DNA of 38,782 bases from positions 1 to 38,782 of the forward strand of contig VGXI01000008.1 of NCBI GenBank assembly GCA_016873475.1, in the 5' to 3' direction. The stretch comes from a bacterium (lineage in GTDB: Bacteria > Krumholzibacteriota > Krumholzibacteriia > JACNKJ01). A model generated the notes under the pieces. It worked only from the letters and a program-made list of their open reading frames with translations. It was not told the DNA's origin and did not search any database. Every line of letters begins with the position of its first letter. Positions within the stretch are counted from its first letter, which is position 1. Shown here in pieces: positions 26,284-35,529 of the stretch. A program made the translations under genes and the position numbers.

Positions 26284-26687
26284 CACTGTCTCGCTCCGGT
26301 CTTGCCCGGCGCTCGCCGCTGCGCCTCGCGCGAGAGCGCCCAGGCTTCGAGCGCGATCGCGAAGGGGTAGCTCAAGGCCACCGCGACGAGAAAGGCACGC
26401 AGTTCCCAGTCCGTGGCGCCCCAGACCGCCAAGCCGAGCGTGGCCAGCAGGAGGACGCGCAACAGCAGTCCCATGAAGTAGGCCCGCAAGAAGCTGAGAC
26501 TCGCCCCTCGCAGCGCCTGGCGCAGCAGCAGGAAGCTCGTGGCGACGGCAAGCAGCACCGCGATGAGGCCCGCGCTCGCCCCGTCGCGACGGGCGGGCTC
26601 AGCCGCGAGCAGCAGCCGCACGGCCACCAGGGCGATCAGCAGCAGGGCCGCGAGCCCGGACAGCATGATCCCCGCGGGGCGTCTCAC
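26283..26687 (-). CDS. atpI: AtpI-type membrane protein of the ATP synthase operon
   Basis: The 134-aa protein has four hydrophobic segments: IMLSGLAALLLIALVAVRLLLAA, GLIAVLLAVATSFLLLRQAL, AYFMGLLLRVLLLATLGLAVWGA and AFLVAVALSYPFAIALEAWAL. Size and position match AtpI, which helps assemble the c ring. The sequence is poorly conserved, so the name rests partly on gene order. It overlaps atpZ by four bases and atpB by one. Confidence 0.7.
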   Translation of the reverse strand: MRRPAGIMLSGLAALLLIALVAVRLLLAAEPARRDGASAGLIAVLLAVATSFLLLRQALRGASLSFLRAYFMGLLLRVLLLATLGLAVWGATDWELRAFLVAVALSYPFAIALEAWALSREAQRRAPGKTGARQ

Positions 26688-26977
26688 GGCAGCTTCGATT
26701 CCCCTTCCCTCCCGGCGGCATTGCCTGCTCGCGAGCGCGACTGTTCCTGGATCACCTGGCGATAGACCCAGAGGAAGCCGCCGACCGCTCCGAGCCCCAC
26801 GCCGAGCAAGGTGAAGAGGGGCAAGGTCCCCAGCTTCCCGTCAAGCCACCAGCCGCCGAGACCGTAGAGCGCCACCGCGGCGCCATAGGTCAGACCGACG
26901 TGGACCAGCGAGAGCGCACTTGCGTCCCGCCCCCGGCCCGCGAGCAGGCGTCTGGTCCACCGGTGCAGTCGCCCCAT
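26684..26977 (-). CDS. atpZ: AtpZ/AtpI-family small membrane protein
   Basis: The 97-aa protein has two helices (LVHVGLTYGAAVALYGLGGWWLDGKLG, FTLLGVGLGAVGGFLWVYRQVIQ). The G-x-W-LD-x-KLGT signature is typical of AtpZ (the putative F0F1-ATPase subunit family linked to Mg2+/Ca2+ handling). It is the first gene of the operon, about 44 bases after the predicted transcription start, and ends in an overlap with atpI. Confidence 0.85.
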   Translation of the reverse strand: MGRLHRWTRRLLAGRGRDASALSLVHVGLTYGAAVALYGLGGWWLDGKLGTLPLFTLLGVGLGAVGGFLWVYRQVIQEQSRSRAGNAAGREGESKLP

Positions 26978-27027
26978 GGCTCAGGCCCTGTGGGTGTGTT
27001 GCGGAGTGGGTTTGTCGGAGCGCGGAC

Positions 27028-27056
27028 AGGATAGCCGCGGCCCCAGCCGGAATCAA
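27028..27056 (-). promoter_or_regulatory. Promoter of the atp operon
   Basis: On the minus strand TTGATT (27056-27051), 17 bases and TATCCT (27033-27028) fit a sigma-70 promoter just before atpZ. It follows the terminator at 27120-27091, so the atp operon is insulated from the small-peptide unit upstream. Confidence 0.5.
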
Positions 27057-27090
27057 GCAGGGAATGCGGAAATTGTCACAAGCACTGGCA

Positions 27091-27120
27091 GCAAAAGGGC
27101 CTGCCCAAAGGAGCAGGCCC
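27091..27120 (-). terminator. Intrinsic terminator of the small-peptide unit
   Basis: On the minus strand GGGCCTGC and GCAGGCCC form a perfect 8-bp stem with an eight-base loop, followed by TTTTGCT. It is 67 bases after the stop of the third small frame and well upstream of the atp promoter. It therefore marks the end of a transcript coming from 27758. Confidence 0.8.
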
Positions 27121-27187
27121 TCGACGTGACTGCAGGCAAGACGGTGGCGATTCCACCCGTGGCTGATGAGTCCTCGGGAGATGCTGG

Positions 27188-27316
27188 TCAGCCGGTCCAG
27201 CGCACCTTTGCAGGCGCCAGGGTCAGCATGCCCAGCAGTTTCAGAAGAGCGAGCAGCGATCCGGAGCCCTTGTTTGCCCGCGTTCCGCTGCGGCTCTTGA
27301 TCCACCGTCTCCTCAA
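27188..27316 (-). CDS. Possible third small membrane peptide (42 aa)
   Basis: A TTG at 27316 lies six bases after GGGAGG and opens a 42-codon frame. The peptide starts with a basic segment (LRRRWIKSRSGTRANKGSG), continues as a hydrophobic helix (SLLALLKLLGMLTLAPA) and ends KVRWTG. It looks like a signal or membrane peptide ending in basic residues plus Trp, as the two TKTWW peptides do. It is the last frame before the terminator at 27120. Against it are the TTG start and its short length. No overlap with another supported gene exists. Confidence 0.4.
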   Translation of the reverse strand: MRRRWIKSRSGTRANKGSGSLLALLKLLGMLTLAPAKVRWTG

Positions 27317-27345
27317 CGCCGGCCTCCCTAGTTTTTCTCGCGATC

Positions 27346-27372
27346 CCGGCCTTCCCAAGGCGGGAAGGCCGG
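27346..27372. repeat. Perfect 11-bp inverted repeat in the small-peptide transcript
   Basis: CCGGCCTTCCC and GGGAAGGCCGG enclose a five-base loop. No T-run follows on either strand. A second stem, GCCGGAA/TTCCGGC, lies at 27408-27425. In the RNA these would sit between the second and third small frames and may affect processing or stability. The rest of 27317-27473 holds nothing else I can name. Confidence 0.6.
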
Positions 27373-27473
27373 AGCCATGACATCCAGTGAACTACCCTCG
27401 CAGAAGAGCCGGAACTGCTTCCGGCCCGGGTTCCGCTCGAACCGGGGGGAACGAGGCGGAAGTCGGGGGCGAC

Positions 27474-27539
27474 CTACCACCAGGTCTTGGTCGCCGACAG
27501 AACCGCGGCCGAGAACACGGCCATGAAGATGATCAGCAT
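27474..27539 (-). CDS. Small membrane peptide B (21 aa), TKTWW family
   Basis: ATG 27539 follows AGGAGG at a good distance. The 21 codons encode MLIIFMAVFSAAVL and then SATKTWW, ending TAG. It is a single hydrophobic helix with a short positively charged, Trp-ended tail. It is clearly related to peptide A at 27612: same MLI start, same tail, same ribosome-site strength. The last 19 bases are identical in both. It is too short to detect by ordinary gene calling. Function unknown: a secreted signal, a membrane toxin of type I kind, or a small regulator of a membrane complex are all possible. Confidence 0.7.
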   Translation of the reverse strand: MLIIFMAVFSAAVLSATKTWW

Positions 27540-27645
27540 CGATGACCTCCTTGTCTGATCACCCGCCGCCTGCGCCTTGGGTGTTCTTGCGATCCGTCGA
27601 ATCCGTCCCGCCTACCACCAGGTCTTGGTCCACCAGGTCTTGGTG
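27474..27645. repeat. Repeated DNA encoding the TKTWW tails
   Basis: CTACCACCAGGTCTTGGTC occurs at 27474-27492 and again at 27612-27630. A third, partial copy (CACCAGGTCTTGGTG) follows directly at 27631-27645. The first two end the two peptide genes; the third is the duplicated tail unit of peptide A. This shows gene duplication plus an internal 15-base duplication. Confidence 0.85.
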
Positions 27646-27686
27646 AGGAGGGCACCCGTCAGCGCAGCCAGCAGAGTGATCAACAT
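27612..27686 (-). CDS. Small membrane peptide A (24 aa), tandem TKTWW tail
   Basis: ATG 27686 follows GGGAGG. The 24 codons encode a hydrophobic MLITLLAALTGALL and then TKTWW twice, ending TAG. The doubled tail comes from a 15-base duplication. A strong -24/-12 promoter lies 57 bases upstream at 27758-27743. A longer in-frame reading from 27854 exists, but it starts upstream of that promoter and looks like random sequence. The likely product is a one-helix membrane peptide with its Trp-rich tail at the interface, or the leader and propeptide of a processed signal. I know of no described family with this tail. Confidence 0.72.
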   Translation of the reverse strand: MLITLLAALTGALLTKTWWTKTWW

Positions 27687-27742
27687 CGCTTTTCCTCCCG
27701 TTGGTGTCCTTGAGTTGCCTCTAAGGTCTACGCCTTCCCTAT

Positions 27743-27758
27743 AGCAACCCGGATGCCC
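27743..27758 (-). promoter_or_regulatory. Sigma-54 promoter of the small-peptide unit
   Basis: The minus strand reads GGGCATCCGGGTTGCT. GG and GC have exactly ten bases between them, the -12 element is a perfect TTGC, and the -24 element is GGCA. The first base and base six differ from the consensus TGGCAC. It lies directly downstream of a sigma-54 activator gene and 57 bases before peptide A. Those neighbours raise the confidence. Confidence 0.65.
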
Positions 27759-27782
27759 GGATCCCTCCCGTTGTTGCCGGAA

Positions 27783-27970
27783 GGCGACATGGAGCTCTAA
27801 GCCATTGTTGTCACGTTGATTATGTGACCGGGATGAAGCCGGCCCAGATGGCATCTACTGGCGACGGATGGAAACAAAAGGCGACAGATCGGAGCCAGAT
27901 CCTCAACCTGTTGTAATTATGGCGATTGAGCTCGACATCAACTGGCGTCACTCTGTCGCCGATCGTTTAC
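27783..27970. promoter_or_regulatory. Array of likely activator-binding sites upstream of the sigma-54 promoter
   Basis: The heptamer GGCGACA or a close variant occurs at 27783-27789, 27860-27866 (GGCGACG) and 27880-27886, and inverted as TGTCGCC at 27954-27960. The last is part of TGTCGCCGATCGTTTAC (27954-27970), which recurs exactly at 29773-29789. These sites lie about 25 to 210 bases upstream of the -24 element, where enhancer-binding proteins normally bind. This 294-base gap otherwise holds no gene. Confidence 0.5.
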
Positions 27971-27980
27971 GATCTGGGCC

Positions 27981-29702
27981 TCAGCGCTCGCGCCGCAGGT
28001 CCAGATCCCGCATCCGGCGGTGCAGGTACTGGCGGGAGATGCCGAGCCGCTCGGCCGCCGTCGTGACGCGGCCGGAGCAATCCTCGAGCGTCCGGTTGAT
28101 CTTGTCGCGCTCCACGCGCAGGAGCAGCTCCTTCAGCCCCTCGCCGCTGGAGCGCAAGCGCGCCTCTGCCGGCCGCGGGTCCAGGACGAGGTCCGCCTCG
28201 CGAAGCAGCGGCCCCAGCTCCGAGAGCGCCAAGGTGCGCTCGATGCACTTCTCGAGCTGGCGCACGTTGCCAGGCCACGGCTCCTGCTGCAGTCGGCGCA
28301 GAGCCGCGGGGGCGAGGCGCGGCCTCGACAGGCCCATGCTCTCGGCATAGCGATCGAGGAAGTGCTCGGCCAGCAGGCCGATATCCTCGGGCCGCTCGCG
28401 CAGGGGCGGCAACTCGATGGCGAGCACGTTGAGCCGGTAGAAGAGATCCTCGCGGAAGCTGCCGGCGGCGATGCGCCTCTCGAGGTCCACGTTCGTAGCG
28501 GTGATGAGGCGCACGTCCACCTTGATCTCGCCGCGCCCACCCAGGCGCCGTAGCTCGCCCGTCTCGAGCACGCGCAGGAGTTTGACCTGCAGCGCGAGCG
28601 GCATGTCCCCCACCTCGTCCAGGAAGAGCGTGCCGCCGTCGGCCTGCTCGAAGAGACCGGGCCGCTCGCTGTCGGCACCCGTGAAGGCGCCCTTCTCGTG
28701 GCCGAAGAGCTCCGCCTCGAGGAGGGTCTCGGGGATGGCGCCGCAGTTGAGCGGGATGAAGGGCCGATCGGCCCAGGGGCTTTCCGTGTGCAATGCCCGC
28801 GCGATCAGCTCCTTGCCCGTCCCGGATTCGCCGTAGATGCGGACAGCGCTGCGGTAGCGGCACATTCGCCGGAGCTGCTCGATGACGCGCAGCATGGCCG
28901 GGCTCGCCGCCAGGATGCTGCCGAAGCGCGTCCGCGCGCCCAGGGCGCTGCGCAGTTCCCGGTTCTCGGCCTGGAGCTGCTCGCTGGCCGCGCGCGCCTG
29001 CTCGAGTTCCTCCAGGCGCAGCATCGCCGCGGCGGCCAGGCGCGAGAAGACCTCCAGCACGGGCACGTCGGCCGCGCCGAAGCGACCCGGCCGCGAGCCG
29101 TCGAGATAGAGCACGCCGAGGATCCGCTCGCGCACGCGCAGGGGCGTCGCGACGACGGTCTCCAGCTCGAGGTCGAGGATGCTCTGCCGCTCCATGCCCT
29201 CGCGAGCTACCCGGCCCTGGTGGACGACGCTGCGCTTCTCGAGGATGGCGTCGCGCACCACCGAGCGGCTGATGTCGCCGAACTCCACCCCTTCCGGCGA
29301 GACGTACACGGGGCGCATCGCGCCGTCCTTGCCGATGCGGAAGAAGGCGGCGCGCTCCGCGCCGACGAGATCGAGGCCGATGGCCAGGACCCGCTGAGGC
29401 AGCTGCCGGGTGTCGCCCGCGACCAGCACCTCGGCATTCGACTCGAGGAGTTCGATGAGGCGCCGGTGCGCCGTGGCGACTCCCTCGAGCTCGGCCAGCC
29501 TGGCTTGGGCATCGCGGAGCTGGGCGAGCAGCCGCTCCCGCTCCCACTCGCCGGCCGCGGGCGGCGGGCCGGCCGGCGAGGGGGATGTCGGCGGGGACTG
29601 GGGGGCGGGCGCCGCAGCGGCGCCGTCGCGGCCGAGCAAGCGCTCGAGGGCGGCCGAGCGCGGCGGGAGGCTGCCGCCACCAGGGGGGGAATCCGCGGGC
29701 AT
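27981..29702 (-). CDS. Sigma-54-dependent activator with GAF sensor, AAA+ and Fis-type HTH
   Basis: The 573-aa protein has a Pro/Ala-rich start (1-50), a coiled coil (52-85) and a GAF domain (about 85-230). After a second coiled coil (230-256) come the AAA+ domain and a Fis-type DNA-binding domain (about 525-570, TAAERLGISRQYLHRRMRDL). The AAA+ part has Walker A GESGTGKE (291-298), the sigma-54-contacting loop GAFTGA (338-343) and Walker B LFLDEVGD (359-364). All parts needed for activating sigma-54 polymerase are intact. There is no response-regulator receiver domain, so it senses a ligand or cell state through GAF. The same 17-bp sequence flanks the gene, which suggests self-control and control of the small-peptide genes. 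Confidence 0.93.
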   Translation of the reverse strand: MPADSPPGGGSLPPRSAALERLLGRDGAAAAPAPQSPPTSPSPAGPPPAAGEWERERLLAQLRDAQARLAELEGVATAHRRLIELLESNAEVLVAGDTRQLPQRVLAIGLDLVGAERAAFFRIGKDGAMRPVYVSPEGVEFGDISRSVVRDAILEKRSVVHQGRVAREGMERQSILDLELETVVATPLRVRERILGVLYLDGSRPGRFGAADVPVLEVFSRLAAAAMLRLEELEQARAASEQLQAENRELRSALGARTRFGSILAASPAMLRVIEQLRRMCRYRSAVRIYGESGTGKELIARALHTESPWADRPFIPLNCGAIPETLLEAELFGHEKGAFTGADSERPGLFEQADGGTLFLDEVGDMPLALQVKLLRVLETGELRRLGGRGEIKVDVRLITATNVDLERRIAAGSFREDLFYRLNVLAIELPPLRERPEDIGLLAEHFLDRYAESMGLSRPRLAPAALRRLQQEPWPGNVRQLEKCIERTLALSELGPLLREADLVLDPRPAEARLRSSGEGLKELLLRVERDKINRTLEDCSGRVTTAAERLGISRQYLHRRMRDLDLRRER

Positions 29703-32505: not shown

Positions 32506-35500
32506 TCAGGTGTCGAGCGTGCGCAGCCGCTCGAGCACGGCCCGACGATCCGGTCGGGCCAAGAAGCGCTCGCGGACGGCCGGATCAGGGAATTGCAGCG
32601 ACAGGTCATGGAGGATGGCGACAGCGCGCTCCAGGTCCGAGCGGGCCGCGGCCCGCTCACCCGCTGCCAGCGCCAGCTCGGCCGCCTCGACGTGCAAGGG
32701 CCAGCGATGCTCCGGACTGACGAGGGTTCCGGCCACGCGAAAGGCCTCTTCGAGCGCGACGGCCGCCTCGCGGATGGCCCCCGCGCTGCGGAGTCGCCGC
32801 GCTTCGAGCTGCCAGGCCCGCGGCAGCAGTCGCCGCTCGCCGACGGCTTCCTCGTGGTCGATCACCGCGGCGAGCAGGCTGCCGTCCGGGTCCGCTGTCG
32901 GGTCCACCGCGATGAGCTCGAGTTGGTATTCGTTGCGATACCTTAGTGCATGGGCTTTGCTGAAGGCGTCGATTGCCGCTCGAAACGCCGCCGCCGCCGC
33001 CTGTACTGCGCCCCCAGCTAGATAGCGCAGGCGACCGCTGATTCCGAGGAAGAACCCTTGGAAGAGGTGATGCTCTGAGCCCAGGGTCGCTTCGAGACCC
33101 AGTTCCGTCGTCCGCCCTGCAGCTTCCAGATCACCGACCGCAAGCTCTAGCAGCGAGACCTCCTGCCTAAAGCTAAGGTGCTCCCGAACCGACTCCTGGC
33201 CTTCGATGAGATGACCTAGTCTGGAGCAGCAGCGCCGCAGTTCAACGTAGTCCCCGGATTCACGTGCGATCATGATGAGGTATGTTTCTATGTACAGCGC
33301 TCGTTTTAGCTCTCCGGTGCGCTCGGCCGAGAGTCGCAGACGCTCGACTTGGGTCCGGGCATCTGCAAGATCCCCACGATTGAGAGCTCTGAGGGCATGC
33401 GCTGCCTCAAGCCGGTGGGTGATGGTTGGGATATCCAGAGACACTGACAGTTCGGTCGCACGCTTGAAAGCGCCGTCGAGCAGCGGCCAGCGCGATCGAT
33501 CGCTCGCGGATATGATCGTCGTGGCCATGTAGACGAGAAGGTCGAACTCGAGCTGCGCGGTGTCCTGGCCTGACTGCATCTGGCCAAGGGCAGCCTCTGA
33601 TTGACGCAAGGCTTCCGCCCGGTCACCGCGATCTTCCGCGAGGCTCGCAAGCGCGATGTTGAGGATCCACGCGCCGTCGCGCCCTGCGAACCGCAGTTGA
33701 TAGCTGGCAGCGAGCTCTCTTGCTTCCGCGTGGGCACCATAGGTGCCAAGCACATTCAACTCACGAGCCGCGATCTGGATCTCGATCGGCGTCCCCCTGA
33801 TCTCTTCATCCCGCCGCTCACGCCACCTCGTCAGGAAGGCGCGAGCATCCTGAACACGACCCGCATCACTCAACTGGTAGACAAGAAAGCGGTTCAGCGT
33901 CGCGCTCGTAGCCACCTCGAGGATATCGTCGGTCCCCCAGAACCGCTCGATCGCTTCGGCAAGCCGGTCCGTTCGCACGAGACGTACGATATCGAGCAAT
34001 CCCGACAGTCTAGCGCCGGCAACTCCAGTCGAACGTCCGCAGAGGAACGATCGGATCGTATCGCAAACCTCGGCCGGAGCTCGCTCAACGATATCCAGCA
34101 CTGCCGCCTGCGGAATCGAGTCGATGAGCTCTTCTGCATTCGTCGCCTGGGCAAGGGCGAGCAGCTGGAGTCGCGCTCCTGGGCGGGATTCTGCCGCAAG
34201 CCATTGCGATGCAAAAACCGCACGCGGCAGAGGAATCGAGCAGTCCGCGACGGCATTGAGATCGGACTCGCCCTGAGGCTCGAAACGGCCACCATCGACA
34301 TTGGCCAATCGACCTCGCTTGCAGAGGTCCTGAAGTGCCTCCTCCAGGCCAGCGCGTTCTGAATCAGCGGTGGATCGCAGCTCTTCAATCGAGAAAGCCA
34401 TTGGCAGCGAGGAGAGGAGCAGCCCCCACTGAAGCTGTGGCTGCTCAGGTTCAGCAGTGTCCAGCAGCCAATCCTTGCGTAGGCGATTGAGGATCATGCT
34501 CGGATCATCCGCAAAAATGGCCTGACCGGCGTGGTCTTGAAGCAACTGAGCACTCAACAAGTGCTCGAGCACGCTACGCAGCCGCCCCGAGTCGCCACGA
34601 GCGATCTGCTCCAGACTCCGCAGCTCCTCTCGCCCTGCGCTCGCAGCCGGGCTGGTCGATGAATAGAGGTTGGCGCGCAGCCACATGGCCAGGCGTTCGC
34701 GGGTGGAGATATCCTCCACCTCGCCATTCGCTGGCCGGAGATAAAGCCGACGGGGCAGAGGCCGAAGGCCGAGCTCCGCCCGCAACCGATCCAGCCAATC
34801 CATGACGCAGCGTGCGGCATCCCTGGCTTGAAGCGTGGCTACGATGTAGGTGTCCAGCGTCCCGGGCAAATCGGCTCGGCTCGTACGCAATGAGCGCACT
34901 CGCCCGACTCGGATATCTTGCAAGAGAGCATCGCCTCTTGTTGCGAGCCAAGGCAGATGCCCCGCAATCCGTTCGTAGAAGAGGACTGCGAGCGCATGCA
35001 GATCGTCGCGCCAGGAGAGTGGCTTGCCATCCAAGCGGCCCGGAGAGAGATAGGCTGGCGTCCCGCCCAGCGCAGGTTTGCCCAGTTCGCTGAGGAGCCC
35101 GAGATCGGCCAGCAGCAACGTCGACTCCTGACCATCCTGCGCCACCAGCACATTGCTGGGCTTGAGATCAGCGTGCCCGAAGCCGAGGTGGTGAAGGTAG
35201 TCGAGGGCATCGGCGATGGGTCCGAGACCATCGAGAAGCTCGGGGAGCGCTGGGCTCCAGTCGGCCAGAGTCCTGCCTGAGAGCAGTGGGAGAAGCAGCC
35301 AGACGCGCCCCTCGGCATCGCTGCCCTGCTCCAGCACGGGAAGCAGCGCGGGGTGTTTGAAGCGAGCTGCCGCCGCCGCCTCGACAAGGAGGACTGGATC
35401 GCAGGCAGCACTGCGGCTCAGCTTGAGAGCAGCCGGGCGCCCGTGCGAGTCCTGCGAGGCGTAGATGCGTGCCGACGCACCTTCCGCGATGAGGCGCTCG

Positions 35501-35529
35501 CGGGGCGGTACGGGTGCGGTTGCGGCCAT
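32506..35529 (-). CDS. Ser/Thr protein kinase with long helical-repeat (TPR/MalT-like) region
   Basis: The 1007-aa protein has an N-terminal protein kinase domain (1 to about 265). Its ATP-binding Lys is K36 (AALKLSR), the helix-C Glu is E50, HADLKPSN gives D121 and N126, and ADLG gives D142, followed by GTPAYLSP. The Gly-rich loop is weak (AEGASARIY), but all catalytic residues are there. The remaining 740 residues are helical, with paired-helix repeats from about 560 on ([61 protein letters not shown]), like the regulatory tails of MalT or LuxR-type proteins. No AAA+ P-loop was seen and no membrane helix. The middle of the gene is less GC-rich than its neighbours. Target unknown. Confidence 0.88.

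Follow-up and report, generated by a model that had tools for sequence, protein, structure and literature searches.

A Family of Tiny TKTWW-Tailed Peptides beside a Sigma-54 Activator and a MASE9–HD-GYP Gene in One Family of Krumholzibacteriota

What is encoded between a sigma-54 activator gene and the atp operon in a genome of the Krumholzibacteriota (GCA_016873475.1), and what might its products do? The window analyzed here is the whole 38,782-nucleotide stretch of contig VGXI01000008.1. A preliminary description, made from the letters of the DNA, had proposed a sigma-54-driven unit of two or three tiny membrane peptides at this place. Our analysis finds a two-gene TKTWW unit on the minus strand, between a GAF/AAA+/Fis activator gene and the atp operon, with the following parts and neighbors.

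27981..29702, minus strand: sigma-54 activator (enhancer-binding protein), 573 aa, GAF + AAA+ + Fis-type HTH (Pfam GAF_2, Sigma54_activat, HTH_8)
27961..27974, minus strand: inverted repeat GATCG-TAAA-CGATC just behind the activator gene, read directly
27742..27757, minus strand: sigma-54-type -24/-12 site GGCATCCGGGTTGCTA, GG-N10-GC
27694..27699, minus strand: ribosome site GGGAGG of peptide 1, read from the sequence
27612..27686, minus strand: peptide 1, MLITLLAALTGALLTKTWWTKTWW, 24 aa, with a doubled tail, TKTWWTKTWW
27615..27644, minus strand: tail word ACCAAGACCTGGTGG of peptide 1 (15 nt), present twice in exact tandem
27546..27552, minus strand: ribosome site AAGGAGG of peptide 2, read from the sequence
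27474..27539, minus strand: peptide 2, MLIIFMAVFSAAVLSATKTWW, 21 aa
27346..27372, minus strand: 11-bp hairpin CCGGCCTTCCC-GCCTT-GGGAAGGCCGG, separating the TKTWW peptides from the type-3 frame
27188..27316, minus strand: type-3 peptide, TTG start, 42 aa, MRRRWIKSRSGTRANKGSGSLLALLKLLGMLTLAPAKVRWTG, ending in ...LLALLKLLGMLTLAPAKVRWTG (KVRWTG)
27091..27120, minus strand: hairpin GGGCCTGC...GCAGGCCC followed by TTTT, read directly and folded; probably a terminator
26684..26977, minus strand: AtpI-like first gene of the atp operon, a neighbor outside the unit

The four genomes of the family that were searched, namely, the window's own (G000), G001, G002, and G003, belong to four different genera. 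The whole unit lies at the same place in G000, G001, and G003, always in the order NrnA-like gene, activator, sigma-54-type site, TKTWW peptides, hairpin, a peptide with the end ...AP-x-K-x-RW, and atp operon; there are two, three, or three TKTWW peptides per unit in the three genera, and the NrnA-like gene ahead of the activator, a DHH gene, is present in all three. In G003 the peptides between the activator and the atp operon are MFITAPMLIALTALILGKTKTWW, MFLTLTVPMLIALTAVIYGKTKTWWGTP, and MFITATMFAALTAILLGYTKTWW, while G001 has MLIFSLFASASVFTAFLTKTWWDIS and two near-copies with the ends TKTWWNIG and TKTWWDHS; a purine-rich ribosome site precedes each peptide in both genomes. These two other genera keep the frames and tails, against intergenic surroundings that have for the most part diverged. 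The comparison thus upholds the proposal of a complete, conserved unit that gene calling easily misses: the outcome named beforehand as refuting it, no conservation of frames or tails in relatives, did not occur. As a side observation, the window also encodes, two genes upstream of the DHH gene (32506-35529), a 1007-aa protein with an N-terminal Ser/Thr kinase domain, the long remainder of which gave no confident Pfam match.

The 24- and 21-codon frames, with their strong ribosome sites and TKTWW tails, are present as described and at the coordinates given, but the doubling of the tail in peptide 1 by a 15-nt tandem copy had been missed. Strong hairpins occur in G001 and G003 at the place matching that at 27346..27372. 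Because both genomes carry, behind their hairpin, a second peptide type with invariant A-P-x-K-x-R-W, orthologous to the type-3 peptide and at the equivalent place, the 42-codon frame, previously listed as a possible third one, is real. The hairpin described as a clean terminator does exist, but its T-run is short; a scan that requires five T residues omits it because it has only four. G-C rich hairpins stand ahead of atp in G001 and G003 too, and the unit seems to end before atp. An atp promoter of its own, also claimed, was not recovered: a scan for sigma-70-type promoters gave none on either strand of 26950-27990, where the phylum's promoters may differ from the scan's model.

The activator itself is a clear member of its class, with its AAA+ sigma-54-interaction domain matching Pfam PF00158 at 6e-70. 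Its orthologs at the equivalent place score 62-65% in G001 and G003 and 47% in G002, and its gene adjoins atp in all four family genomes. The GG-N10-GC spacing of the -24/-12 element is exact, as had been noted, but as a match in a single genome it is no better than chance: shuffling the 294-base leader gives a P of about 0.14, and the window contains several chance sigma-54-type matches equal to or better than it. The site becomes convincing because the identical 16-mer occupies the same place in three genera (G000, G001, and G003); no other match to it at zero or one mismatch was found in the four family genomes. The inverted repeat at 27961..27974 has a counterpart at the same place in G001 (TCGTAAACATGTGTTTACGA), and we infer that it may be a binding site of the activator.

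G002 keeps the activator and atp, but no peptide was seen there. What follows its activator, at a distance of 135 nt, is a sigma-54-like site that leads into a strongly structured non-coding stretch (L097:828-985, minus strand) with a terminator-like end (z of -3.8; 1 of 200 shuffles as stable), which is possibly a small RNA in place of the peptides.

The activator-driven peptides have 21 to 28 residues: an initiator Met, a body of 14 to 19 residues, and then Thr-Lys-Thr-Trp-Trp. Their bodies are strongly hydrophobic (Eisenberg mean of 0.70 to 0.80, with a low moment), and most of them bear no charge ahead of the tail region. In an alignment of the peptides the TKTWW tail is the sole invariant part. 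Because peptide 1 carries it twice and four other peptides continue for three residues beyond it, the tail behaves as a module that does not require a free C terminus. Its Thr codons are ACC at 23 of 24 sites, compared with about 0.46 of the Thr codons in neighboring genes; counted once per lineage, the figure is 11 of 12 (P = 0.0014). Thus, a constraint on the RNA or DNA may add to the one on the protein.

Among the 80 phylum genomes searched, the tail word occurs in three, all of the family. As a DNA word, TKTWW-stop gave seven in-frame matches in these three and none in the 77 other phylum genomes, which comprise the fourth family member and all other phylum families in the sample; the reversed pattern, used as a control, gave one match across all 80. 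A peptide profile run against 78 genomes of the class gave 11 matches, all in the same three genomes; these are the training sequences plus one near-copy, so that the values for peptide 1 (4.4e-5) and peptide 2 (2.8e-9) in their own genome are those of sequences that are themselves part of the profile. The next-best profile matches (E of 0.04) lie in longer frames and were treated as chance, as were two matches of the exact tail word in viral contigs, which are without a hydrophobic ORF. A plasmid search with the 900-bp region gave no match, and the stretch downstream of the activator in other families showed no peptides with TKTWW-like tails. Judged by these sequence counts, the peptides are far beyond chance, and the existence of a real peptide family is near certain. 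The earlier statement that no described family matches them stands: Pfam, NCBIfam, PADLOC, and PDB gave no match to the peptides, PHROGs gave one weak match to the peptide described next (E of 0.048, function unknown), and in the literature searched the word TKTWW was found only in one unrelated tomato paper.

A further member of the family, peptide B, is encoded on another contig, outside the window and so beyond the view of the preliminary description. It has 20 residues (MFKFIIDLFFGDLLLTKTWW in G000, MFKFIFDLFFGDLLLTKTWW in G003, and MFKFIFDLFFGDMMLTKTWW in G001; consensus, MFKFI(I/F)DLFFGD(LL/MM)LTKTWW), and its gene is directly upstream of one for a 434-aa MASE9 + HD-GYP protein of the c-di-GMP phosphodiesterase type. 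Its body is less hydrophobic and more amphipathic than those of the activator-driven peptides, with Lys and Asp present and a higher moment. Between genomes, peptide B genes differ at 8 to 9 nucleotides and the peptides at 1 to 3 residues, where neutral simulation predicts about 6. For G000 and G003 (9 nucleotide differences, 1 amino acid difference, neutral expectation of 6.4), none of 4,000 simulations was as low, and the other two genome pairs gave P values of 0.006 and 0.003. These simulations indicate that peptide B is under purifying selection at the protein level. The ribosome site of peptide B can be paired by its own leader, through a CCUCC stretch in G001 and G003 and through GCCUCA with UGAGGU in G018, which makes RNA control of the peptide possible. 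At the gathering threshold, Rfam matched neither the window nor any of seven related loci; when five HD-GYP loci were scanned permissively, three matches appeared, all weak and irrelevant.

Several other families share the gene order of the HD-GYP locus, RsfS-ArgS-PfkB-unknown-HD-GYP-PurM (names from reading the translations). No TKTWW-like peptide was seen at this locus in families f3, f6, f7, and f8, and the MASE9-HD-GYP gene of G002, a genome that is 77% complete, was not found. In two genomes of family f5, a tiny ORF with a strong ribosome site and a basic/Trp end (MFWVLGSKIRW and MRWLMSVMLAGHIKW) lies upstream of HD-GYP. Trp-ending tiny ORFs behind GAGGTG number about 11 in ten genomes, and these two stand out among them by their position; they could be leader peptides. 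In both (L154 and L155) no ribosome site is visible for the HD-GYP start codon, which follows the tiny ORF at a distance of about 33 nt; the two frames are possibly coupled in translation. We also observed AGCGNAGCG-type repeats ahead of the tiny ORF in the window's family, f1, and in f5 (L133:1330-1400, L135:1320-1392, L134, L154, and L155).

The two loci are themselves linked across families. An activator from another family, used as query, has as its best match in each of the four family genomes the window's activator or its ortholog. Outside the family, 14 genomes have both genes on one contig, and in 13 of them (all but G022) a distance of 4 to 20 kb separates the activator ortholog and the MASE9-HD-GYP gene. 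In family f3, the sigma-54-type sequence TGGCAY-N7-TGC stands ahead of HD-GYP in 9 of 11 genomes (L136, L137, L140-L145, and L147), with about 0.1 expected in each; it is absent in both genomes of the window's family that were scored. The window's family has the activator and HD-GYP genes apart, on different contigs (G001, with its long contigs, shows this clearly), and both of the separated loci carry TKTWW peptides. A different sigma-54 activator gene is situated just beyond PurM, near HD-GYP, in G000 (L091:9990-11498), G003 (C96:60843), and G001 (C253:82684). The presence of this other activator gene calls for caution about the link between the two loci, and binding of any activator to the f3 HD-GYP promoters is putative.

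The preliminary description had left signal, toxin, and regulator readings side by side; the genomic links favour the regulator. The reading that we prefer, at a probability of roughly 40%, is that the peptides are membrane-seated regulators that act through their tail. They would be made and would insert into the cytoplasmic membrane or settle on it, the Lys/Trp/Trp tail lying at the interface, and the tail would be the recognition element for one membrane partner shared by all of them. Small hydrophobic regulators are known as a kind: CydX, KdpF, and SpoVM-like proteins are single-helix small membrane protein regulators. The TKTWW peptides resemble them in having 20 to 40 residues, one hydrophobic or amphipathic helix, and a likely membrane partner, but differ in the absence of any sequence match, the invariant tail, the tandem sigma-54-driven copies, and the restriction to one bacterial family; as far as searchable, the TKTWW family and its arrangement are new. 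The leading candidate for the partner is the MASE9-HD-GYP phosphodiesterase, a contact inferred from guilt by location. Peptide B would then be the enzyme's regular partner, with the copies made under the activator either supplementing it or competing with it, and in this way the activator's signal would reach c-di-GMP turnover. It would be as if the peptide link had replaced an older transcriptional one, in which a sigma-54 promoter of its own drove the HD-GYP gene. This full relay, with the tail engaging MASE9, is a tentative and in our view rather doubtful extension. The synteny of the unit in three genera and the exact tail at two separate loci count for the preferred reading, as do the protein-level selection on peptide B, the hydrophobic bodies, the modular tail, the nearness of the activator ortholog to HD-GYP in other families, the f3 sigma-54-type sites, and the tiny ORFs of f5. 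Against it count the conservation of the tail at the nucleotide level, more than a role of the protein alone would call for; G002, of the same family, where no peptide was seen beside the same activator and atp; the other activator gene near HD-GYP; and the chance that the f5 ORFs are leader peptides.

That the peptides are instead type I toxin-like, depolarizing the membrane or lowering ATP when induced and otherwise restrained by an RNA, is unlikely. In their small size, hydrophobicity, and tandem copies they resemble Ldr, Ibs, and ZorO. The last of these, a tandemly duplicated peptide of 29 aa, has a 5'-UTR that conceals its ribosome site (PMC8309996), and one TKTWW leader, that of peptide B, could do the same by pairing (G001, G003, and G018). 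The TKTWW peptides differ, however, in their dedicated activator, their strictly conserved tail, and the member fixed beside HD-GYP; an invariant tail with purifying selection is unusual for depolarizers, a stable place beside a conserved gene speaks against the toxin, PADLOC and Pfam are silent on the peptides, and an antisense promoter over the unit was not seen, although this is a weak test. A streptococcal type of signal, in which the hydrophobic body would be the signal segment and a TKTWW-containing fragment the pheromone, fares worse and is very unlikely. ComS/XIP pheromones carry a Trp-Trp motif. The tiny hydrophobic precursors of ComS/XIP and SHP are indeed reminiscent of the TKTWW peptides, whose tail is invariant on a variable body and doubled in peptide 1. 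Unlike in those systems, the tail is not always terminal, with three variable residues after it in four peptides; no sequence relation is shown, the peptides are co-located with an HD-GYP enzyme and not with a cytosolic peptide receptor, and no Rgg/ComR-type receptor was found among the scanned neighbors (activator, DHH, aldolase, kinase, MASE9-HD-GYP, and one unassigned protein).

Two further readings are each quite unlikely. Translation of the tiny frames, through their terminal Trp codons or a stalling tail, might control the genes downstream in the manner of attenuation. Adjacent Trp codons in a tiny ORF recall the trp leader peptides, which contain tandem Trp; hairpins come after the frames, one frame is directly upstream of an enzyme gene, and the f5 HD-GYP start about 33 nt behind its tiny frame, with no ribosome site, fits as well. 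But the TKTWW frames occur in two or three tandem copies in a unit that seemingly ends before atp, neither atp nor HD-GYP is related to Trp, and the hydrophobic body, needless for a codon-sensing leader, is kept at the protein level. Alternatively, the transcript may be, or also be, a regulatory RNA, with the word ACCAAGACCTGGTGG as an RNA or pairing element and the peptides secondary. The bias of the tail toward a single Thr codon agrees with this, as does the structured, peptide-free stretch with its terminator-like end behind the sigma-54-like site of G002. Yet, in the family's units, the word is always in frame and closes, or nearly closes, a hydrophobic ORF that has a ribosome site of its own. 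Most of the variation in peptide B is synonymous, and the two chance viral-contig matches of the word show no such ORF. The least probable reading makes the peptides small modulators of ATP synthase. The unit adjoins the atp operon in all three genera, but atp adjacency as an explanation of function is disfavoured because G002 keeps it without peptides and one member lies far from atp, beside HD-GYP.

We return, then, to membrane-seated regulators acting through the tail. The peptide family occurs in three genera and at two loci, beside a sigma-54 activator and beside a membrane-sensor c-di-GMP enzyme. It also shows that exact-tail DNA words can bring to light peptide families whose members are too small for the usual searches by homology. 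If the preferred reading holds, these bacteria would offer a concrete and testable example in which peptides some 20 residues long act between an activator of transcription and an enzyme of the membrane.
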